From positions 1 to 39,536 of IMG/VR virus record IMGVR_UViG_3300008267_000485: a stretch of 39,536 bases of DNA, one strand, 5' to 3'. This DNA is from a virus. Position 1 is the first letter of the stretch. Each line of letters begins with the position of its first letter. A model generated the notes under the pieces. That model had not been told where the DNA came from. It saw nothing but the letters and a program-made list of their open reading frames with translations, and did no database searches. Both the position numbers and the translations under genes were made by a program. Shown piece after piece: positions 3,362 to 39,428 of this stretch.

Positions 3362-3685
3362 ATGGCAAGACAAACATATAATAGATATACTGACTTTATA
3401 ATAAACGGACAACAAACAGTTGTACCATATATTAATCTGCCATCTAAAACAACAGACAAAAGATTTATATATAAAGTCGGACAATCTAGATTAGATAAGG
3501 TTTCTCAACAGTATTATGACACTCCTGTATTTGGATGGTTAATCTTAGTTGCTAACTCAACTTATGGAGGACAAGAATGGAACATTCCTGACGGTGCAAT
3601 ATTGACAATTCCATTTCCTTTAGTAGCTTCATTACAGGACTATAAAAATGAATTAGAGAACCATTTCTTCTATTATGGCAGGTAA
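3362..3685 (+). CDS. gp53: gp53-like baseplate wedge protein (LysM-like fold)
   Basis: A 107-residue protein with a LysM-like core: YKVGQSRLDKVSQQYY followed by GWLILVANS and IPDGAILTIPFPL. This matches the pattern of phage gp53-type wedge proteins (a repeat that positions 'YGD..yWlI...N' before 'ip.G..l.IP'). T4 gp53 is about 196 residues, so this is a short form holding mainly the LysM-like part. In T4 the protein joins wedge subunits into the hexagonal baseplate; a peptidoglycan-binding role is not implied. It starts 2 nt after the previous stop, and its stop overlaps the next start by 11 nt, so it is translationally coupled to both large neighbours. Confidence 0.75.
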   Translation: MARQTYNRYTDFIINGQQTVVPYINLPSKTTDKRFIYKVGQSRLDKVSQQYYDTPVFGWLILVANSTYGGQEWNIPDGAILTIPFPLVASLQDYKNELENHFFYYGR

Positions 3686-10477: not shown

Positions 10478-11158
10478 ATGAAAGTTGACATAAAAATTAT
10501 TGAAGAACTTGAAAGATATAGAAAAATAAATAACTATATCACCGAACAAGAAGCCACATTACCTCCTCCACCACCTGCGGGAGATGCGGGAGCATTACCT
10601 CCACCACCTGCAGAAGGTGCGGTTCCACCACCACCGCCAGGGGACGCGGGAGCACCACCACCAACAGGTGAAGTACCACCTGTAGGAGAACCTGTTGATA
10701 CTGCGACAGACCCTGAAGTTGAGAAGGTTGGAGAAACCGATAAAAAAGGAAAAGAAATTGAAGTTACTGACTTGGTAAAATCTCAAAAAAATGTTGAGAA
10801 AAAACAAGAAGAATATTTTGATACTTTATTTAACCATTTAAATGATTTAGAAACTAAATTATCTGCGATGGATGAAATCATGAACAAACTAAATGATTTA
10901 GAAACTAAAGTTGAAAAATACAGAGTAAAAACACCTGAAGAAAAATTGGAACTACGCAGTTTAGATTCAGGACCTTACAATCAAAAATTAAGTGATTTTT
11001 TTGTTGACAAACAAGAAGATATTGAAAAATCAGGAAAAAATGAATATGTTTTAACACAACAAGATGTTGAAAGTTATTCCCCTTCAGATATTAAAAGAAG
11101 TTTTAGAGCTTTTGGTGATGAAGAACCTGAAATAGACAACTTTAGAAGATTACAGTAA
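10478..11158 (+). CDS. Proline-rich, coiled-coil protein of unknown function
   Basis: A 226-residue product. An N-terminal helix of about 25 residues is followed by a Pro/Ala/Gly-rich stretch (about residues 28-75) of repeated PPPPPAGDAGA-type units, then an acidic linker, a predicted coiled coil (about residues 105-150, with NDLETKL and NDLETKV repeated about 19 residues apart) and a polar C-terminal region. No family is recognised. The architecture, with rigid Pro linker plus coiled coil, fits a minor structural or scaffold-type protein, but that is inference. It is the last gene before a strong terminator, so it closes the first virion transcription unit. Confidence 0.7.
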   Translation: MKVDIKIIEELERYRKINNYITEQEATLPPPPPAGDAGALPPPPAEGAVPPPPPGDAGAPPPTGEVPPVGEPVDTATDPEVEKVGETDKKGKEIEVTDLVKSQKNVEKKQEEYFDTLFNHLNDLETKLSAMDEIMNKLNDLETKVEKYRVKTPEEKLELRSLDSGPYNQKLSDFFVDKQEDIEKSGKNEYVLTQQDVESYSPSDIKRSFRAFGDEEPEIDNFRRLQ

Positions 11159-19781: not shown

Positions 19782-20237
19782 ATGGCAGAAGGTAAAACAT
19801 ATGGTATAAATTTCCCATTTCAAGACTCCTCGAAAGGTAATTATTTAAGTCTTTCTGAAGATAGAGATGCTGAAATTAGAAGTAATCTTGTACACTTACT
19901 TTTAACAAGGAAAGGGACTAGATATTATTTACCTGACTTTGGTACTCGTTTATATGAATTTATTTTTGAACCAATGGACGGACCAACATTTTCAGATATT
20001 GAAGCTGAAATTAGGGATTCTGTATCTGAGTACATGCCAGGGATTACAATTCAAAATATAAGTGTTAAACCCGCATCTGAAGGTGAAGAAAATAAAGGGT
20101 CTTATATTGAAGATGATAAAAGAGTTTACAAAGTTCCTGGTATTGGAGAAATGGAACATACCGCAAAAATAAAAATAGATTATATTATCACTGACTCAGC
20201 ATTTAATGAAAGTGATTTTGTGATTATCAATATTTAA
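19782..20237 (+). CDS. gp25: gp25-like baseplate wedge protein
   Basis: A 151-residue protein of the gp25/lysozyme-like baseplate family. The signature is an early INFPFQDS, then EIRSNLVHLLLTRKGTRYYLPDFGTRL and EFIFEPMDGPTFSDIEAEI, matching the usual 'R..G.r...P.fG..l' core that contacts the sheath and wedge. T4 gp25 is 132 residues; the extra length is a polar loop (EGEENKGSYIEDDKR). In contractile tails it joins the wedge core bundle and primes sheath assembly. Despite the historical name, no lysozyme active site is seen. The gp6-like gene follows 6 nt downstream, as is common for these two genes in contractile phages. Confidence 0.85.
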   Translation: MAEGKTYGINFPFQDSSKGNYLSLSEDRDAEIRSNLVHLLLTRKGTRYYLPDFGTRLYEFIFEPMDGPTFSDIEAEIRDSVSEYMPGITIQNISVKPASEGEENKGSYIEDDKRVYKVPGIGEMEHTAKIKIDYIITDSAFNESDFVIINI

Positions 20238-20243
20238 TAATAT

Positions 20244-22082
20244 ATGGCTAATAAAAAAATATCATATACCACAAGGGATTTTCAGTCTATTAGAACTGAA
20301 CTTGTTAATTTTACAAGAACTTACTATCCTGAATTAATTGATAATTTTAATGATGCTTCCGTTTTTTCCGCATTGTTGGATTTAAATGCTGCGGTTACCG
20401 ATAACTTACAATTTAATATTGATAGGAGTATTCAGGAAACTGTACTTCAGTATGCTCAACAAAGGTCATCTATTTTTAATATCGCAAGAACTTACGGATT
20501 AAAAATTCCTGGACAAAGACCATCTGTAGCTCTTGTTGATTTTTCAATAACAGTACCCGCTTTTGGAGATAAAGAAGATTTAAGATATTGTGGTATCTTA
20601 AGGAGAGGTTCTCAAGTAAACGGAGCAGGACAAGTTTTTGAAACCGTTTATGATATAGATTTTGCATCGGCAATTAACGCTGAAGGATTCCCGAATAGGT
20701 TAAAAATACCAAATTTTGATGCAAATAACAAACTATTAAATTACACCATAGTTAAACGAGAAACTGTAGTTAATGGTATCACTAAAGTATTCAAACGAGT
20801 TATTACACCAAACGATGTAAGACCTTTTTTCGAATTGTTTTTACCTGAAAAAAATGTATTAGGAGTGACAAGCGTACTCTTAAAAGACGGTACTCAATAT
20901 TCAAACGTACCATCTGCACAAGAATTCTTAGGTTTAGATAATAGATGGTATGAAGTTAAAGCATTAATTGAAGATAGAGTATTTGTTGAAGACCCAACTA
21001 AAGTATCTGACAACCCTGGAATCAAAGTTGGTAGATATGTACAAACAAATACTAAATTTATAACTGAGTTTACTCCCGAAGGATTTTTAAAGATGACTTT
21101 TGGTGGAGGTACTCAATCTGCTGACGAACAATTAAGAGAATTTGCGAGAAACGGATATCAATTAGACCTTTATAAGTACTCAAACAACTTTGCTTTGGGT
21201 AGTACTTTAAAAGGGAACTCAACATTATTTGTTCAGTATAGAATTGGAGGAGGAACTGCGAGTAATTTAGGTGTTAATGTTATCACACAAATTGGTAATA
21301 TATCCTTCTTTGTTAACGGACCTTCAGAATCTATTAATACAAGTGTTGTTAACTCATTATCATGTACCAACGTAACTGCAGCGATTGGAGGTGCTCCATC
21401 ACCAACAACAGAAGAAGTAAGAAACTTAGTAGCATTTAACTTTGCCGCACAAAACAGAGCGGTAACTATAAATGATTATGACTCAATTATAAGAACAATG
21501 CCATCCCAATTTGGGGCACCTGCAAAAGTTGCAATTACTGAAGAAAACAATAAAATCATTATTAAAATGTTGGCGTATGACGAATCAGGGAGTTTAACCG
21601 AAATCGTCTCAAACACCTTGAAAAATAATGTTGCTAACTATCTCTCAAACTATAGAATGATTAATGATTATATTTCGATTCAAAGTGCGAATGTAATTGA
21701 TTTAGGTATCAATATTGATGTGGTATTAGATAATAGTCAAAATCAAGGAACTGTTATTTCTCAAATAGTGAATGTTATCACAGAATACATGAGTCCATCT
21801 AATCGACAAATGGGGCAAAACGTTTATGTATCTGAAATAAGACGTTTAGTACAAAGTGAAAATGGTGTTATTTCTGTTGCAGATATTCAAGTATTCAACA
21901 AAATCGGAGGTCAATATTCTTCATCACAAACATCGCAAAGATATGCGAATGAGGATACAAAACAAATTGAATTAATTGACGATACAATTTTTGCAGAACC
22001 AAGTCAAACGTATCAATTAAGATTCCCAAGCAAAGATGTTATTGTTAGAGTTAAAAATCTTAAGACTGTTAATTTCTCTTGA
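20244..22082 (+). CDS. gp6: gp6/J-like baseplate wedge protein
   Basis: A 612-residue protein of the baseplate J/gp6 superfamily. It opens with KISYTTRDFQSIRTELVNF and NDASVFSALLDLNAAVTDNL, the standard N-terminal wedge signature, and its second half has the conserved turn VRNLVAFNFAAQNRAVTINDY with QFGAPAKVAI. T4 gp6 is 660 residues. The protein dimerises to build the iris-like ring of the baseplate, contacting gp25 and gp53. It stops at TGA (22080-22082). A 74-nt gap with an inverted repeat separates it from the next giant gene. Confidence 0.85.
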   Translation: MANKKISYTTRDFQSIRTELVNFTRTYYPELIDNFNDASVFSALLDLNAAVTDNLQFNIDRSIQETVLQYAQQRSSIFNIARTYGLKIPGQRPSVALVDFSITVPAFGDKEDLRYCGILRRGSQVNGAGQVFETVYDIDFASAINAEGFPNRLKIPNFDANNKLLNYTIVKRETVVNGITKVFKRVITPNDVRPFFELFLPEKNVLGVTSVLLKDGTQYSNVPSAQEFLGLDNRWYEVKALIEDRVFVEDPTKVSDNPGIKVGRYVQTNTKFITEFTPEGFLKMTFGGGTQSADEQLREFARNGYQLDLYKYSNNFALGSTLKGNSTLFVQYRIGGGTASNLGVNVITQIGNISFFVNGPSESINTSVVNSLSCTNVTAAIGGAPSPTTEEVRNLVAFNFAAQNRAVTINDYDSIIRTMPSQFGAPAKVAITEENNKIIIKMLAYDESGSLTEIVSNTLKNNVANYLSNYRMINDYISIQSANVIDLGINIDVVLDNSQNQGTVISQIVNVITEYMSPSNRQMGQNVYVSEIRRLVQSENGVISVADIQVFNKIGGQYSSSQTSQRYANEDTKQIELIDDTIFAEPSQTYQLRFPSKDVIVRVKNLKTVNFS

Positions 22083-22156: not shown

Positions 22157-25100
22157 ATGTCGAATTCATATAGAATAAGAACACAAGTAGGTGTTGATAA
22201 ATCATTAAAAGTACTTTTAGACCAAGACTTTGAATTTTTAGAGATATTGTCTTTAAAAATATTACAGAGTCAAATTTATACAAGACCATGTTCTGATTAT
22301 GGTGTTGTAATTGGTAGAGTAACCGCTAATGACGGATTTGGTATTCCTAACGCCAAAGTTTCAATTTTTATACCCTTAACTTCCGAAGATGAAACAAATC
22401 CAATCATCGCGGATTTATATCCTTATAAAAACTTAACAGAATTAAATGAAGACGGGTATAGATATAACTTATTACCTTATGTAAAACAACATAGTGGACA
22501 CAACCCAACAGGAACATTTTTTGACAGAGAAGATGTTTTAACTAACCCAACACTAATAGAAGTTTTTGACAAATATTATCGTTACACCGCAAGAACAAAT
22601 GATAGTGGTGACTATATGATATTTGGAGTACCAATTGGTGCTCAAACAATACACGTTGATGTTGACTTGTCCGACATCGGTGAATTTTCTCTATCACCAC
22701 AAGATTTAGTTAGAATGGGTGTTGCGACACCAGCTCAAGTTGCGGGTACTAACTTTAAAAGTTCAAACAATCTTAATGAGTTACCTCAAATTGTAACAAT
22801 TAATAGGACTATTGAAGTTGAACCTTTATGGGGTCAACCTGAAATTTGTAATATAGGTATCACAAGAACTGATTTTGATTTAACTGCAGAAGCCAATATT
22901 ACTATAACACCTACCGCCATTTTTATGGGGTCATTAATTTCATCAAATGATGACCAATACCAAAAAAGAAGTTGTAAACCAAAGTTAAAACAAGGTAATC
23001 TATGTAATTTAGTTGCAGGACCTGGTGAAATTTTGGCGATAAGACAAACAATACAACAGGATATAAATGGTAGACCTGTACTTGAAGTATATGATTTAGA
23101 ACAAGGTGGTCAAGTTATTGATGAAAATGGTGCTTGGATGATTGATGTACCAATGAACTTAGATTACGTAGTAACTAATGAATTTGGAGAAAGAGTCATA
23201 TCTAATGACCCATCAAAAGGAATTCCAACTAAAGGTAAATATCGATTTAAAGTTAAGTGGAATCAAGAACCGACCTTAAATGAGGCAATAAAAAGAGGTT
23301 ATTTTTTAGTTCCAAATATTAAAGAGTATGGGTGGACTCAAGGTAGTGGAACTGACCCATTACAAAATACAATACCCGATACAATTTATGCTATTAAATC
23401 TTACACTTTTAGTTTAGATTGGGACGACTATGGGGATACCACCCCTTTAGGGTTACAAATGATTCAAGAAGCGATTGACTGTGAGGATAGATTTTATCCT
23501 ATGGTTTATAATAAAGTTTATACCGTTTCACAGTTGATTGACCAATATAGGAAAGGATATCTTCCTAACAGAATGGTGTCATTAAAAAATAATCTTGACG
23601 ATGCTTGTGAAAGTGAAAATGTTAAGTTTCCTAACAATGATGCTATACTAAGGTTTGATTTGATATATCTACTTTTTGTCATAATGATATTCCTATTCAA
23701 ACCGATTTTATATGTTTTACTAATCGTTGTTCACATATTAGCCTTCTTATTGAAGTATATTTTAGGTCCTATATTAGCAGTTGTTGTTGCTATTATAGTT
23801 ACGGTAATTTTGATAATTTGTTATATCGTACAAGGGTTATGTTTTGGTTGTTTGGGTAGTAAGTGTGAAGAATTAATTGATATGTACGATTACGTACAAA
23901 CTATGTTAGATTTGTATAAGTATTTTACTAATTTGGCAATTCCAAACTTATCATATTCTGACTGTGAACTTTGTGATTGTAAACAAGGTGGAAGTCCTGA
24001 CCCTGGGGTTTCAGACCCATCAGGTAGTGGTTTAGATTCCGAAACTTTAATCCAAGATAGTGGTTTATACGCGGTATTATCTAAGTATGGATTCAATGGA
24101 GAGTATATTCAGAGTCTTAATACTACTACTTTTTCATATCCATTGGTCATCTCAAATTTATTTGCAGGACAACCAATTGATACTGGAAGCCCAAGTTCTA
24201 CTAATTCAGTTCCTCAACTTTTAGAATATGATACAGGTTCAGGAAATTATATATTCACTAACAGTTTAACAATTCCTGAAAGATTAAATTTGTTTAATAA
24301 TAAAGCGAAGTATTTTGATGCGAATTCAAATAATCCTGGTGGAGGGGTAAATAAAATACGAGTTACATTTGAGTCTAACGTTAACATTGCTCCAACGTCA
24401 CCTACTCCATTACCATCAGATAAATGGCATTTAGATAACGTAATTGCACTTTCAGTAGTCCCATCCCAGCTTCCTAAGTTTACACAGGGTAAAATTATAA
24501 CTTTTCAGAATCCTGAATTAAGTCAAGATTTAAACTTAACAGGTTTTACAAGTTGGAATCAATTTGGTACATCGTCCATGACAGGTACCTCAATAAACAT
24601 AGGACCTACCCCAATACAAATTAGTTATGCGGACCCAACAGGTGTCGGAACAATAAGTCCTTCACATTCTAATTACATAATTACTCAAGACGTTGATGAT
24701 GCTACGTACCATAAATTTGGTATGGACATGGAATATTTCCAAGTTATAACTGCAATGACATATAGTTCATTTTCGTCAGATTCTAACCTCTCAAATGCAA
24801 ACTCACTTTTGAATAGAATCCTCAATAACACCATGTTATATAATGTTGTTGATAGTAGTGGATGTTGGTTACAAGCACCAAGTACAACAAATCCTATGTC
24901 CTACTTCAATGACTCTGGAAACCAAGGAATTGTATTTTTAGTTAGAGGGGTTGACCCTAATACGTCAAGAAGACAACATACATATGACTTAAGTATTTTA
25001 TTTGGATATAATTTTTATCACAACTCAGGACAATTTGTTGTAACAGGGGATTATAAAATGAATTATCCGATTCAAGGGAGTTATAAATCAGTGTCTCATA

Positions 25101-26671
25101 CAAACATGGTTGCCGACACTACAGTTACAGATACGTCAAACTCTACAGGTTTAAATCTATATTATGATTCATTTCATTTCCAACCATCAGTTGGAGGTAC
25201 GGGAGCAACCTTTACCGCTTTCACATCTACTTTACCAAGTTATTATTCAAGTTTAGATGGAACAACTTCAACATTCAATCCTGGAGGAGCGCCAGGAAAC
25301 TTAGGGTTACCATGTAATTTTAGTGGTACTTATGGAGCTAGAGTGAAAAATTTCTTGTCACCTTATAACGGTTTTACAATTCAGTACACTAATTTGGTAA
25401 CGACAATACCATGTAATTTCTACTCACCCGTTCAAAACACGTCTACAGATACTAGAGGTTATTTTGTTAATGAGATTGTTGAAGGTGGTTCTGTGTTCTT
25501 ACAAAACAGTTCGATTCCATTTGGAGGACCTATTACACAAACAGGTTATTTATACGCACCTAGTTACACTGTAACACCATTTACATTTAACAATAACGTA
25601 ACAGTGACTAACAATCAAATTGTTATGAGGTCTGATAGATTACCTACCTCAACGACCACAACTAATCTACTAAACAATAGTCTTGCTTTACATGGTAATC
25701 CTAATTTTAGTGTATATTATTTAGAAGATGACGGAACATCTCAAAACGAACCACAATCTTCTAATACCCCTACTGCAGGAGACCCTCAAGAAGGATTGGA
25801 GAACAATCAAGATTTACCTGACCCTAATAACGTGTTAAACACATTCAACTGTGGTAACATGATTCCTTTAGAATGTTATTACTCACTACCTAATGGTGAA
25901 GTATCATACTTTTCAAGACCAGCTTCATGTTACGAAAATGGTGTTGAAGGAAGGTCTATTTTTGAAAATGGATGTTATATTTTGGTATCATCTATTTTGG
26001 GTACTTTGGTTAATGGAAAAGACTTTAAGTTGTTAACCGAGTGGTCATCAAGGATACAAATAACGTTTGCGGCATGTAGAAATGTATGGTCTCACGTCTT
26101 TACTAATAGTTGGATAAATGGAACGTTATACGCATTTTCATTTAAAAATGATAGATTTTTCACAAGTCCAACCTCACCAAATCCTAATCAACCATATTCT
26201 GTTTATTGTAGAGACACGGTATACCTACATCCAACAAATAATTTCTACTATAGAAGTAGTCCTTATGATGGTACTAATTTTATTGGTTCAGACCCGCCTT
26301 CAGGAGTGTTTGGTAATTACGGTGGAAACAATAGGAATTTAAAATATCCGACAACTATAATGGATTTAGGGCCTAGGTCTTTCTATTTACAAGAACTAAT
26401 TATGTCTGATGATTATGATGGATACGTAGTTAACAGATTAAATGAAACTTCTTTTACTGACGTTGAAGACATTTTGAATCTTTTCATTTTGAATCGACTT
26501 ACAAATACTAAATTTTTGGAATCACTTTTCGGAGGTGGTGGTGCTAATGTTCTAACCTACTTTGACCAAAGAAGTAAAAACTTTGTTGATGGTGATTATG
26601 CGCAGATGATATCTATAAGTTCACTATCCTTCAGTACCTACCCAAGACCCAATTTATTTCGGAAACGCTAA
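22157..26671 (+). CDS. Giant virion protein with carboxypeptidase-regulatory-like domains, hydrophobic stretch and Cys cluster
   Basis: A 1,504-residue frame, probably continuing to 27215 after a +1 shift. The N-terminal third has transthyretin-like/CarboxypepD_reg features (YGVVIGRVTANDG..IPNAKVSIF, later NDSGDYMIFGVPIG, and a second block with VIDENGAWMIDVP). Residues 503-558 form an almost unbroken hydrophobic stretch, enough for two or three membrane helices, ending at C555 and followed by C562, C565, C570 and C603, C606, C608. The rest is Ser/Thr/Asn-rich beta-type sequence as in tail fibres. It lies between the wedge genes and the adhesin. No family is recognised for the whole. A tail-tip or fibre protein able to enter a membrane is the working idea; it is inference. 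Confidence 0.75.
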   Translation: MSNSYRIRTQVGVDKSLKVLLDQDFEFLEILSLKILQSQIYTRPCSDYGVVIGRVTANDGFGIPNAKVSIFIPLTSEDETNPIIADLYPYKNLTELNEDGYRYNLLPYVKQHSGHNPTGTFFDREDVLTNPTLIEVFDKYYRYTARTNDSGDYMIFGVPIGAQTIHVDVDLSDIGEFSLSPQDLVRMGVATPAQVAGTNFKSSNNLNELPQIVTINRTIEVEPLWGQPEICNIGITRTDFDLTAEANITITPTAIFMGSLISSNDDQYQKRSCKPKLKQGNLCNLVAGPGEILAIRQTIQQDINGRPVLEVYDLEQGGQVIDENGAWMIDVPMNLDYVVTNEFGERVISNDPSKGIPTKGKYRFKVKWNQEPTLNEAIKRGYFLVPNIKEYGWTQGSGTDPLQNTIPDTIYAIKSYTFSLDWDDYGDTTPLGLQMIQEAIDCEDRFYPMVYNKVYTVSQLIDQYRKGYLPNRMVSLKNNLDDACESENVKFPNNDAILRFDLIYLLFVIMIFLFKPILYVLLIVVHILAFLLKYILGPILAVVVAIIVTVILIICYIVQGLCFGCLGSKCEELIDMYDYVQTMLDLYKYFTNLAIPNLSYSDCELCDCKQGGSPDPGVSDPSGSGLDSETLIQDSGLYAVLSKYGFNGEYIQSLNTTTFSYPLVISNLFAGQPIDTGSPSSTNSVPQLLEYDTGSGNYIFTNSLTIPERLNLFNNKAKYFDANSNNPGGGVNKIRVTFESNVNIAPTSPTPLPSDKWHLDNVIALSVVPSQLPKFTQGKIITFQNPELSQDLNLTGFTSWNQFGTSSMTGTSINIGPTPIQISYADPTGVGTISPSHSNYIITQDVDDATYHKFGMDMEYFQVITAMTYSSFSSDSNLSNANSLLNRILNNTMLYNVVDSSGCWLQAPSTTNPMSYFNDSGNQGIVFLVRGVDPNTSRRQHTYDLSILFGYNFYHNSGQFVVTGDYKMNYPIQGSYKSVSHTNMVADTTVTDTSNSTGLNLYYDSFHFQPSVGGTGATFTAFTSTLPSYYSSLDGTTSTFNPGGAPGNLGLPCNFSGTYGARVKNFLSPYNGFTIQYTNLVTTIPCNFYSPVQNTSTDTRGYFVNEIVEGGSVFLQNSSIPFGGPITQTGYLYAPSYTVTPFTFNNNVTVTNNQIVMRSDRLPTSTTTTNLLNNSLALHGNPNFSVYYLEDDGTSQNEPQSSNTPTAGDPQEGLENNQDLPDPNNVLNTFNCGNMIPLECYYSLPNGEVSYFSRPASCYENGVEGRSIFENGCYILVSSILGTLVNGKDFKLLTEWSSRIQITFAACRNVWSHVFTNSWINGTLYAFSFKNDRFFTSPTSPNPNQPYSVYCRDTVYLHPTNNFYYRSSPYDGTNFIGSDPPSGVFGNYGGNNRNLKYPTTIMDLGPRSFYLQELIMSDDYDGYVVNRLNETSFTDVEDILNLFILNRLTNTKFLESLFGGGGANVLTYFDQRSKNFVDGDYAQMISISSLSFSTYPRPNLFRKR

Positions 26672-27215
26672 TGATGAGGATGTTGTTTTTGGTATATTTT
26701 ACTCTTCTGATACTCAGTTAAGAGATTTTATAACCCCAAAAAGAACTATTATTTCACCAACCGCAACTGTAACAGACCCATGTGCGTTTAATTATTTCAG
26801 AGTATTTTCGCAAACAGTTCCGTTTTATCAGTGGGATATTAAACAAAATCCTGGCCAAAACAGTATTTTTGGGTCTCAATCAAATGATTGGTATACGTCT
26901 CCGTTAGGGTCGTCGTTTTTACAAAACAGATATCAGTCAATGGATAGGTTACAACCAACATCAAGATATTTTAGAACGAATGGTAGTACTCAGACACAAT
27001 ACTTTAAAGGATACATATACTCAGTAGACCCAATAACTAATGATTTGTCATGGTCTCCTTCTACTCAAGACCCAAATGCCGCTCCATTTAGTCCATCTGA
27101 TAGAATAATTACCGTTGGAGCACCTTTCCATTTCTATTTTGGACTTAAAAAAGGTAAAACTGCATTTGATAGGTTTGCTAAACAATGGATAAAATTTGAT
27201 ACAATAACTGACTAA
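26619..27215 (+). CDS. C-terminal continuation of the 22157 gene in the +1 frame
   Basis: After the upstream frame stops at 26671, the +1 frame is open from 26619 to 27215 with natural codon use and no good start codon before an ATG at 26940. It reads YPSVPTQDPIYFGNANDED and on to a Tyr/Phe-rich end (FHFYFGLKKGKTAFDRFAK). An independent gene starting at 26940 would leave about 270 nt of evidently coding sequence unused. The frame change lies between 26619 and 26671; the upstream frame's last codons include rare CGG and CGC. The next gene starts 1 nt after the stop. It could be programmed frameshifting, a real mutation or a sequencing error. Confidence 0.65.
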   Translation, partial: VHYPSVPTQDPIYFGNANDEDVVFGIFYSSDTQLRDFITPKRTIISPTATVTDPCAFNYFRVFSQTVPFYQWDIKQNPGQNSIFGSQSNDWYTSPLGSSFLQNRYQSMDRLQPTSRYFRTNGSTQTQYFKGYIYSVDPITNDLSWSPSTQDPNAAPFSPSDRIITVGAPFHFYFGLKKGKTAFDRFAKQWIKFDTITD

Positions 27216-34900: not shown

Positions 34901-34932
34901 GGATAAACTTTGAAATTTTATGTAATCAATAA
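31909..34932 (+). CDS. Large baseplate protein, P2 gpI / T4 gp7-like
   Basis: A 1,007-residue product. The middle part (nt about 32880-33370) has the features of the P2 gpI-type tail protein family: a helical lead-in ([19 protein letters not shown]), then [20 protein letters not shown] followed by [11 protein letters not shown], matching the usual 'K.KGT..ai..ll..lG' motif. T4 gp7 (1,032 residues) is the wedge protein with this domain, so length and content agree. The N-terminal third is a beta-rich region with [21 protein letters not shown] and the C-terminal part has two short Cys-rich turns ([21 protein letters not shown]). It would link the wedge ring to peripheral fibres and is coupled to the adhesin gene by TAATG. 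Confidence 0.7.
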
Positions 34933-37900
34933 TGTCTTGTATCTTTTCATATAACTTAAGTGTTACAGGCGATTGTACCAATTCAGGATTAGGTTCTGTT
35001 TCTATAACAATACCACCTGGTGGTGCCCCTCCTTACACAATTGTTTCCCCTGTATCGGGAACAACTTCAGGGATTATTTCCGCATACACTGAAACCGATT
35101 TAGCACCTGGGGCATACACTTATATTTTAACTGACTCATGTTTACCGTTCAATAATTCCTCACCCATTAACGTTTTTATTTCAAGTGGTACGTGTGTATC
35201 AATTGATGATGAACAACATACTACTTGTGGACTTGATAATGGTTCATTAACCGCCTCAACATCTACTGACTATGGAACACTTACTTTCCAACTCTATGAG
35301 GAAACTATTGGTTTTATAAATTCAGGAACAACCGTAACAAATCCTTACATTTTTGATAATTTACCTGCAGGGTTTTATTATGTTATTGCTGATGATGGAG
35401 GAGGTTGTACAGAAAGGTCAGAAACATGTATTGTTAAAGCCTCAACTACGTTCAGTTTTGGTCTATACACAATCAATAATTCACCTTGTTTAGCGTCCAC
35501 AGGTTCAGTTTATGTTACAGGGCAAACTGGGACACCACCTTTTAATTATCTTTGGAGTAACGGAAGTACTAACAGTTATATAACAGGTCTAACCGCAGGT
35601 TCATACAATGTTATTGTCACTGATTCATTAGGTTGTACAAATAGTTTAGGTACTGTAGTTTCAACTGTACCCGCTTTAAATATTGCATCAATAATTACTG
35701 AAAGTCCATCATGTTTTAGCAATGATGGCTCAGCAACTGTAACAGTTGTTGGAGGAACTGCGCCTTTTTATTATTCGGGGTCGAACGGATTTTCAATTAT
35801 TACATATTCAAACACATTTACTTTCACAGGTTTATCTGCGGGATTCTTTTCTGTTTATGTACAAGATGCTGGTTTGTGTAACGATACGGAATCTACGGTT
35901 TTATTAACCCCATCATCATTTGTTGTAGTTTCAGTAGATGTCTCGGGGTCAACTTGTAATAATTCAGGTGGGATGATTAATGTAACAATATTTGGAGGCT
36001 CTCCACCGTATACATACACTTTGACTAACAACTCAACATCATTACAAAATGTTGTAACGGGTAGTTTTACAAATTGGCCTTTTAATGGTTTATCGTCAGG
36101 TTCATATACCTTAGAGATAAGTGATTTAGGACCTTGTGTATTTACACATACCTATACTGTTAATAATACTGAAAAGTTTACATTATCTGTTAACACCACA
36201 GGAACAACTTGTAATCAAAATAATGGAAGTGTTGAACTTTTAATTTCAAGTGGAGGTACTGCACCATATACTTATGAAATTGACGGACAACTTGTAATTA
36301 CAGGCGCAAGTTCATACACGTTTACAAATATAACTGCGGGTAATTATACTGCGACAGTTACCGATTCAACATTCTGTGAACAATTATTACCATTTACAAT
36401 AGCTTCATCATCCATTGTTGATTTTATTTTAGTTGGAACTGATTCGACAAATGGAACTAATGGTACGGTTCAAGGTTTGATAACAAGTGGAACTCCTCCA
36501 TTTAGTTGGAGTTGGAGTCCAAATGTGAATGGACAGACAGGTCTTACTGTGACAAGTTTGTCTGCAGGGACATATACTCTTACTGTTACCGATGGTGACG
36601 GTTGTATAAAAGTTAGAAATATTACAATTGAAGGATTTAATAAATTAAATTCATATCAAGTATTAACAATTTGTAATGATGATTTTACTCAGACAGGAGA
36701 TTTAGGTAGAAAAGGGCCTCAACAACTTTTACTTGAAGGTTTCCATGATTTAACGACTGGTGATACAAATTGTATTTTAAATCAATCTATTTTTGAATTA
36801 ATAACAGTTGTTGATGGAGTGACCAAAAGTCAATCTTTTTACACAGGAACTTCTTTAAATGACTTTCCTTTAGATAACGTATATTATGATGTTTTAGAAG
36901 AATTATTATTAACTTATCCTATAGTTGGTCAAGTTATTATAGACGCAATTAATAATAAAGTTTCTATTATTACAGATTGTGAGGTAGCTGAAAATTTACA
37001 GGGAGTTACTTTGAATGTTTATTTAAATATAAAATATGACATTTCTTGTGTTAGTTGTGATATACCTGTTACACCAACACCAACACCATCACCATGTGTT
37101 TATAATGAATGGGAAATAAATCTTTCATCACCTTGTACTTTTGAACTATATGATTGTTTTAATAACGTTTATGATACTGTAACATTTGGTAGTCCAGGAA
37201 CTTATTATGTTTGTTCTGTATCTCAACCAACAAATAGTGGTATTTGCGCTTTACCACCTATTATTCCTATTGTTGGGTCTTGTACCCCGTTTGTAACTTT
37301 AACTCCAACACCAACTCCTACCTTAACTCCGACTCCTACACCTCAAGTAATTGTACCATTATGTAGTGTGTTATATAATACCCCTGATTATGAAGTTTAT
37401 TCATATGATGTATTATCTAATACATCGACACTATTACCAGTTTCTTCTGTAACATATATTGCAGACATTGCTCACACTAATACCAAATTGTGGGTAAGTT
37501 CAGGAATAGGTATTAGAGAATGGGACATTACATTATCACCGTTTACATCTACGGTCAATAGGGATATTACAATACCTAATCTAATTGGACCTGGATTAGG
37601 AGCAATTGATGACACAACATTAATCGCTTTAAGAACTGATGTTACACCTAGAGAGATTGTGACTTTAGATATAACAACAAGCACCGCAGTATTAACAACT
37701 CAATTCCCAATATTATCAGGAAGAACAATATCTGGAGATATTATGTTAACAACAACTAATAAAGTTATTATCACGAATAACCCAATCGTGGGACCTCTTA
37801 CTAGATATATTAGTCAATACGATTTTAGTACAGGAACATTAGAGGTGGACATCCAAATAAGTCCTACAATCGCAGAACCTTACGGTATTTTTGTTGACAG

Positions 37901-39428
37901 TGGAAACATATATATTGTGGATGGAGGAACAAGTAATGTGTATAATATACTATCAAGTCCACCATACACAATAACTCCTGTAGGTTTTGTTTTTGGTGTT
38001 CCTTTTGGAGCTTCTCAAGTACCAAGTTGTATTGATACTAATTTTGAGGTTGCCTTTGTAAGTACGTGGAGAACAACAAACACATCTTCAGGGTCGACAC
38101 CATCAAATCAAATCCAACTTCCATTAATAAGCGCGGGAACGTACAGTTTTGTTGTGGATTGGGGTGACGGAGGACCTACAGACACTATAACAACTTGGAA
38201 TCAATCTGAAACCACTCATACTTACCTGACACCTGGCGATTATATAGTTAGAATTACAGGTACTATTGAAGGATGGGTATTTGACCCACTTATTACCCCT
38301 AATGGTGGAGATAATGAAAAAATATTGAATGTACTACAATGGGGTCCTTTTAGTTTGGGGGCAGGTAATATAAGTGTAGCAGGTTTTGCAGGATGTTCTA
38401 ACTTAGAATTGGATACTGTAAACGATATTTTAAATCTTTCAGGGACAACTAGTCTCGGTAGAGTTTTTATTAATTGTTCATCTTTAACCACGATAAATAA
38501 TGTTAGTTCTTGGGATGTCTCATCAATTACAAGTATGGTTAATTTATTTGCTTTTTGTTCTTCATTTGATGACAATTTAAGTAGCTGGGATGTTTCAAAT
38601 GTAAATATAATGAGCGGCATGTTCCGAGGGTGTAGTGTATTCAATAATGGAGGTACTGCAGGAATTGACACATGGGATGTTTCTTCGGTTACTAATATGA
38701 ATCTGATGTTCTCGCAAGCAACAATATTTAATCAACCAATTGGAAGTTGGAATGTTTCAGGTGTTACTAATATGGCGGGTATGTTCCAAGTGGCTTCAAA
38801 CTTTAATCAACCAATTGGAAGTTGGGATGTTTCCTCAGTAACTACAATGTCTAGTATGTTTAATGGAGCGACAAACTTTAATCAACCAATTGGAAGTTGG
38901 GATGTTTCCTCAGTAACTACAATGTTTAGTATGTTTAACGGAGCGACAAATTTTAACCAAAATATTGGAGGTTGGGATGTTTCCTCAGTAACTACAATGC
39001 TCGGTATGTTTAACGGAGCGACAAATTTTAACCAAAATATTGGCGGTTGGAATGTTTCAGGTGTTACCAATATGTCTAATATGTTCGGCTCGGCTTCAAA
39101 CTTTAATCAAAATTTAGGAAGTTGGAATGTTTCAGGTGTTACTAATATGTCTGATATGTTTAATGGGGCGACAAACTTTAATCAAAATTTAGGAAATTGG
39201 GACGTTTCAAACGTAAATAACATGACTAATATGTTAAATTCTACATCATTATCAACAACTAACTATAATTCATTATTAAATGGATGGGCTTCTTTAGGAG
39301 GTTCATTACAATCAGGAGTTACATTCGGAGCTGGTACTACGGTATACACTGTTTCAACCGCAGGTGCTTCACATACATATTTAACAGGAACAAAATTATG
39401 GGTGATAAGTGATGGAGGGGGTATATAA
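34932..39428 (+). CDS. Giant modular tail adhesin: SprB-type repeats, beta-propeller-like part and BspA/DUF285 repeats
   Basis: A 1,498-residue probable receptor-binding protein. About seven SprB-like repeats of about 80 residues (nt about 34944-36630) have the pattern C..xxGS....GG..PY.Y......T.L.AG.Y...V.D..GC. An unrecognised domain (36640-37060), two Thr-Pro linkers (about 37069-37095 and 37297-37344), and a beta-propeller-like section (37345-38035, with [27 protein letters not shown]) follow. Next is a PKD-like segment (VVDWGDGG) and then BspA/DUF285-type repeats (38400-39230). SprB repeats are typical of gliding adhesins of Flavobacteriia; here there is no signal peptide or type IX sorting domain, so the protein is expected on the virion. 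Start overlaps the previous stop by one base. It ends the operon. Confidence 0.8.
38730..39230 (+). repeat. 75-bp tandem repeats coding 25-residue BspA/DUF285 units
   Basis: Units start at 38730, 38805, 38880, 38955, 39030, 39105 and 39180 (last one diverged). The protein consensus is [17 protein letters not shown] plus SSMFNGAT. Units 38805-38879 and 38880-38954 differ at 3 of 75 bases, two of them silent. More diverged units lie upstream to about 38400. Such repeats form a leucine-rich-repeat-like solenoid in bacterial surface proteins. Confidence 0.9.

Follow-up and report, generated by a model that had tools for sequence, protein, structure and literature searches.

Once the spike of a contractile-tailed phage has gone through the outer membrane, the DNA still has to cross the inner one, and how it does so is an open question. 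The window analysed here, 39,536 nucleotides of the IMG/VR virus record IMGVR_UViG_3300008267_000485, holds a giant gene at 22157..27215 (+ strand), and its product carries a long hydrophobic stretch between two modules. The sequence-only reading had put the stretch and the cysteines behind it forward as a candidate device that could be hidden in the virion and inserted into the outer or inner membrane on infection, with the cysteines as a disulfide or metal trigger. It is asked below which gene cluster the protein belongs to, how far the hydrophobic stretch and the cysteines are conserved, and whether insertion is the best account of them.

A giant gene in a T4-type baseplate cluster

The frame of the gene is real, and it is broken between 26622 and 26623, near the 3' end. 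Compared with contig L002, to which the window is 100% identical over 14466 bases before this point and 99.96% identical over 9969 bases after it, the gene has a 32-bp deletion after base 26622, and the window copy is frame-shifted because of the 32 bases additional in L002. The 1504-aa ORF at 22157-26671 is thus not full length, and what looks like a separate gene at 26940-27215 (+), a 91-aa ORF, is the 3' end left over from the giant gene. In L002 the frame is intact and runs to about 1696 aa, a usual size for the family, whose proteins measure 1,500-1,850 aa. The exact deletion junction matched no other viral contig searched and the intact junction matched one, L002 itself; since each junction was met in a single contig, the deletion may be either an assembly error or a private mutation. 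The presence of the hydrophobic helix is independent of it.

Directly upstream of the giant gene lies a gp6-like baseplate wedge gene (20244..22082, +; phrog_219, 2.9e-22; Baseplate_J, 1.1e-6), preceded by a gp25-like baseplate wedge gene (19782..20237, +; phrog_261, 1.5e-16). A gp6-like gene stands directly upstream, at about 1.9 kb, in all 228 family loci, the gp25-like gene was found in the same place in 199 of these, and the downstream genes are likewise shared, the counts being limited by contig ends. Because of this gp6/gp25 synteny the giant protein belongs to a T4-type baseplate cluster. In T4, gp6 is followed by the next large wedge gene, gp7, and the giant gene resembles gp7 in its position directly behind gp6; it was not classed as a gp7, as there was no profile match to PDB chains and no fold match among the matches listed for the modelled monomer halves.

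The giant protein had no match in PHROGs, no match above cut-off in Pfam, and no match at E <= 1 in a profile search of PDB chains. This lack of a family match would suit an accessory membrane protein that is merely located in the cluster and forms no part of the virion. Such a role is highly improbable, given the constancy of the position behind gp6 in every locus, the length of the protein, its strand-rich multidomain body and the extreme conservation of its N-terminal module.

Relatives were abundant in IMG/VR, where three overlapping scans confirmed at least 345, at least 539 and at least 596 loci; the longest of the contigs measures 326 kb. Sequence searches of 50,697 phage records and of a bacterial and archaeal genome collection found none. 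One predicted structure belongs to the family, that of the protein A0A8S5LA66 from the metagenomic Myoviridae sp. ctPuP5, with 35% identity and, against the N-terminal model, a TM-score of 0.55 and a Foldseek E of 2.1e-47; being uncharacterized, it adds no function.

Judged by gp6, the nearest cultured phages are Flavobacterium phage immuto (26%) and Microcystis phage Mel-JY01 (24.5%). The giant proteins downstream of gp6 in these two phages were rejected as homologues, having neither membrane segments nor detectable homology. The gp6 of LR756508, used as a query, retrieved only 3 near-identical loci, and no member of the giant-protein family was present at sister gp6 loci. At many of these sister loci, which belong to myoviruses, a different, helical protein encoded just upstream of gp6 bears hydrophobic helices, and an LPIP/LPLP motif comes after one such helix. 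The search found 27 members, among them L306:6626-9127, L311:2495-5614, L320:7083-9110 and L296:7197-9047. Against the window it gave weak matches only (E 0.01, to a 226-aa proline-rich ORF at 10478), and a relocated function is no more than a lead.

The hydrophobic segment and its conservation

The hydrophobic stretch, which had been placed at residues 503-558, lies where it was described and covers residues 502-561 (23660..23839, +). Its Kyte-Doolittle (KD) peak over 19 residues is 3.38, whereas 2000 shuffles of the giant protein gave 1.83 on average and 3.04 at most; the hydropathy mean over 56 residues is 2.70, and the shuffles reached no more than 1.65. Of 15 window proteins scanned, encoded by the tail and baseplate genes and their neighbours, the giant protein alone has a KD peak above 1.65. 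In a 309-kb relative the hydropathy peaks of all remaining ORFs longer than 354 aa stay at or below 2.0, those of the virion gene region included.

An AlphaFold model (monomer, 118 sequences, mean pLDDT 83) predicts residues 502-561 as a single continuous helix of 60 residues (block pLDDT 80-94), behind a low-confidence hinge at residues 460-500. A second, more polar helix is predicted at residues 569-584 (23861..23908, +); it is variable, and is shortened or absent in minimal relatives. Residues 600-641 were modelled at low confidence and include a variable linker (609-640; 23981..24076, +) with pLDDT below 50 and identity of about 30%. Two or three membrane helices had been expected from the sequence; the model gives one long helix, and the minimal relatives keep about 36 hydrophobic residues.

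Conservation was assessed in 199 relatives, all from uncultured phages. The hydrophobic segment was retained in 199/199, with a lowest peak over 19 residues of 2.16, while in the family alignment identity within the segment drops to about 30-50%. Chance hydrophobicity and a frameshift artefact were ruled out by this conservation and by the open frames of the relatives. The excursion as a whole varies in length, the distance from C484 to C603 ranging from 71 to 149 residues, and the shortest excursions (L118, L093) still hold some 36 hydrophobic residues.

A universal helix core, residues 502-532 (23660..23752, +), was present in 199/199 relatives. Acidic residues are absent from it bar one exceptional alignment cell among the 199 members, position 515 is polar (Q/K/R/T) in most members, and a proline follows position 515 in 130/199. 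A near-invariant histidine, H526 (23732..23734, +; 196/199), lies on the polar face of the predicted helix, where positions 504, 508, 512, 515, 519 and 526 share one side, the stripe in the universal core being 508/512/515/519/526. Over 90 members below 80% identity, mean hydropathy in the core repeats with a helical period of 100 degrees (permutation p=0.0003). Such a polar stripe would be expected of a membrane helix that lines a pore or is bundled with others.

The stripe would also fit helices packed through their polar side into a buried coiled bundle that never contacts a membrane and serves an oligomeric baseplate hub or needle as its static hydrophobic core or as a plug. In T5, hydrophobic residues of TMPpb2C are hidden within a coil at the tip of the tail (PMC10038345), and a monomer model does not discriminate between the two arrangements. 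A bundle buried in water, however, would turn its hydrophobic face inward and a broader polar face outward. The polar stripe seen here is narrow and the rest is strongly hydrophobic over 31-60 residues, and so it suits lipid on the outside and argues against the static core, which is regarded as unlikely.

Flanking cysteines and terminal modules

The seven cysteines that had been grouped as one cluster (C555, C562, C565, C570, C603, C606 and C608) are all present in the window protein, and they divide on comparison with the relatives. C603-x2-C606-x-C608 (23963..23980, +; consensus LPxLxYPDCExCxC), which closes the hydrophobic excursion, is conserved in 198, 198 and 195 of the 199, respectively; C555 and C570 occur in roughly one third of the members, and C562 and C565 in few. 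A single site made of all seven was ruled out, since four of them vary across the family. The earlier inventory had overlooked C484 (23606..23608, +), on the opposite flank, which is invariant (199/199) and lies at the hinge before the helix. The four near-invariant cysteines C484, C603, C606 and C608 might bind an iron-sulfur cluster, as in tail-tip proteins of the lambda gpL / RcGTA hub type, and they stay fixed while the excursion outside residues 502-532 varies freely. Such conservation shows that these flanking cysteines are important without revealing their task, and a disulfide or metal trigger is a putative role.

The fixed flanks bear on the possibility that the segment anchors the protein in the inner membrane during baseplate assembly in the infected cell, or keeps it out of solution until assembly. 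A membrane-spanning segment of a protein made in the cytoplasm would enter the inner membrane unless it is shielded, which speaks for such an anchor. Neither fixed cysteines on both flanks nor an invariant polar stripe would be needed for that purpose, however, the giant protein is without a signal-like N terminus, and the T4 counterparts of its neighbours, gp25 and gp6, are made as soluble proteins. An assembly anchor is therefore considered improbable.

The helix stands between two modules. The N-terminal module (residues 1-459; 22157..23533, +) consists of strand-rich domains with about 75% identity across the family and contains the further family-conserved cysteines C45, C231, C273, C283 and C442. 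Among the Foldseek matches listed for it there were generic Ig/transthyretin-like sandwiches only, and Pfam gave a weak carboxypeptidase-regulatory-like match, below cut-off, at residues 141-168. The C-terminal module runs to the deletion as residues 691-1489 (24227..26622, +); beyond it, the shifted frame carries the module on to 27215. Modelled from the intact copy it is strand-rich, with a mean pLDDT of 80, and had no PDB match at E <= 0.001 among the Foldseek matches listed.

A link between the modules is suggested by C273 (22973..22975, +), which across the family is lost only together with C1351 (26207..26209, +), its likely partner. In 120 non-redundant members, all 10 that lack C273 also lack C1351, and C1351 alone is absent in 3. 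Parsimony gave 5 changes for C273 and 6 for C1351, of which only two independent pairs fall on well-supported branches; the pattern is suggestive of a contact, as in a disulfide. This co-loss makes it probable that the two modules are in contact and that the helix is an excursion from one body.

Proposed insertion and known penetration devices

On balance it appears probable that the giant protein is part of a contractile-tail baseplate and that its hydrophobic helix, mounted on hinges, enters the host envelope during infection. The giant gene would encode a structural baseplate protein of uncultured large contractile-tailed phages, with the conserved N-terminal and C-terminal modules as the baseplate-bound body. 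The long helix between them, with one polar face formed by H526 and the polar residue at 515, would be mounted on two hinges marked by C484 and by C603/C606/C608. The assembled baseplate may keep the helix packed, probably as an oligomeric bundle, until opening of the baseplate on the host releases it. The released helix could then insert into a host membrane, outer or inner, where it would anchor the tail tip and line or support DNA passage, and the cysteines may tie both ends of the excursion together, by metal or by disulfides.

The dimensions of the segment speak against insertion in two respects. The 60-residue helix of the model would measure about 90 A if straight, which far exceeds one bilayer crossing, and the universal core of 31-36 residues is no clean fit for a single crossing or for two complete ones. 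A more far-reaching reading, held to be speculative and rather unlikely, is that of a new kind of penetration part for contractile tails in a large uncultivated phage lineage. The helix would then belong to an internal hydrophobic bundle that is clamped at its base by a metal or disulfide site of the cysteines and replaces or complements the rigid spike, its switch being a redox change or the loss of metal within the host envelope.

The rarity of membrane helices in tail proteins had been put forward as a sign of an undescribed device. As proof of such a device it is not supported, in view of published precedents, namely T5 pb2, the megatron and tape measure protein of R4C/RcGTA, and phi29 gp9. 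The stretch is, as in this class of penetration proteins, long enough for at least one membrane helix (KD peak 3.38; 199/199), and none of the proven penetration proteins is homologous to the giant protein by the searches made. On the best reading the giant protein would, by analogy, work like T5 pb2, phi29 gp9 and the RcGTA/R4C megatron, and it is no detectable member of those families.

In T5, a siphophage, pb2 is a coiled-coil tape measure inside the tube, and insertion of 46 hydrophobic residues into the outer membrane has been proposed (PMC10038345). The giant protein, in contrast, is strand-rich, is encoded behind gp6 of a contractile tail and has hinges marked by cysteines, and there is no sequence match. 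A tape measure protein, long and mostly helical or coiled-coil, was also rejected as its identity, as the N-terminal 460 and C-terminal 1000 residues are strand-rich and multidomain; in the 309-kb relative PHROGs named no tape measure candidate.

Hydrophobic helices have been described in the tape measure and megatron of R4C (PMC10276861), and the RcGTA megatron has an iris/penetration domain with a hydrophobic, putative pore-lining helix, the RcGTA hub having an iron-sulfur site of four cysteines (PMC7296036). The giant protein would be like the megatrons as a baseplate protein with a hydrophobic, putatively pore-lining helix. The RcGTA penetration segment, however, is N-terminal and short (residues 1-46), whereas the helix here is internal, and the Fe-S site of RcGTA resides in a separate protein, the hub, whereas the cysteines here flank the helix. 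Homology to the megatrons was rejected, as no PDB chain was matched by profile at E <= 1 and Foldseek gave only generic sandwiches among the matches listed. In phi29 gp9, internal hydrophobic loops leave the tail knob as a helix barrel that is hydrophobic on the outside (PMC6542822); phi29 differs in its short non-contractile tail, with no cysteine hinges reported, and gp9 has no sequence match to the giant protein. The giant protein is real, conserved and unnamed; as a device it would apply a familiar logic, though in a family not described so far and at a new site.

The phages concerned may be related to the moraphages, which are reported to be uncultivated aquatic phages of 200-307 kb, mostly freshwater, with predicted Bacteroidota hosts, no tape measure protein identified, and a Lys-tRNA ligase-type domain in 24/28 (PMC12619734). 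The family contigs resemble moraphages in size, in T4-type gp6/gp25 and in DnaK (2 of 4 long contigs), whereas the Lys-tRNA ligase-type domain was found in only 1 of the 4. In 12 of the 16 passages of that paper on membranes or baseplates no such giant protein is described (PMC12619734). The family places a conserved hydrophobic helix in a probable baseplate protein of abundant uncultured aquatic phages, with hundreds of IMG/VR loci. It offers exact residues for mutation (H526, position 515, C484, C603/606/608), and liposome assays on a short segment would need no culture of the phage.

Two further features of the window were recorded. Baseplate wedge matches occur twice within this one 39-kb stretch, at 3362-3685 (phrog_7145) and at 19782-20237 (phrog_261/43), with a replication and ribonucleotide reductase block between them. 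At 34932-39428 lies a gene for a 1498-aa Thr/Ser-rich protein with 33 cysteines and with Hoc-like and repeat-family matches (phrog_17273, 22899, 35701).
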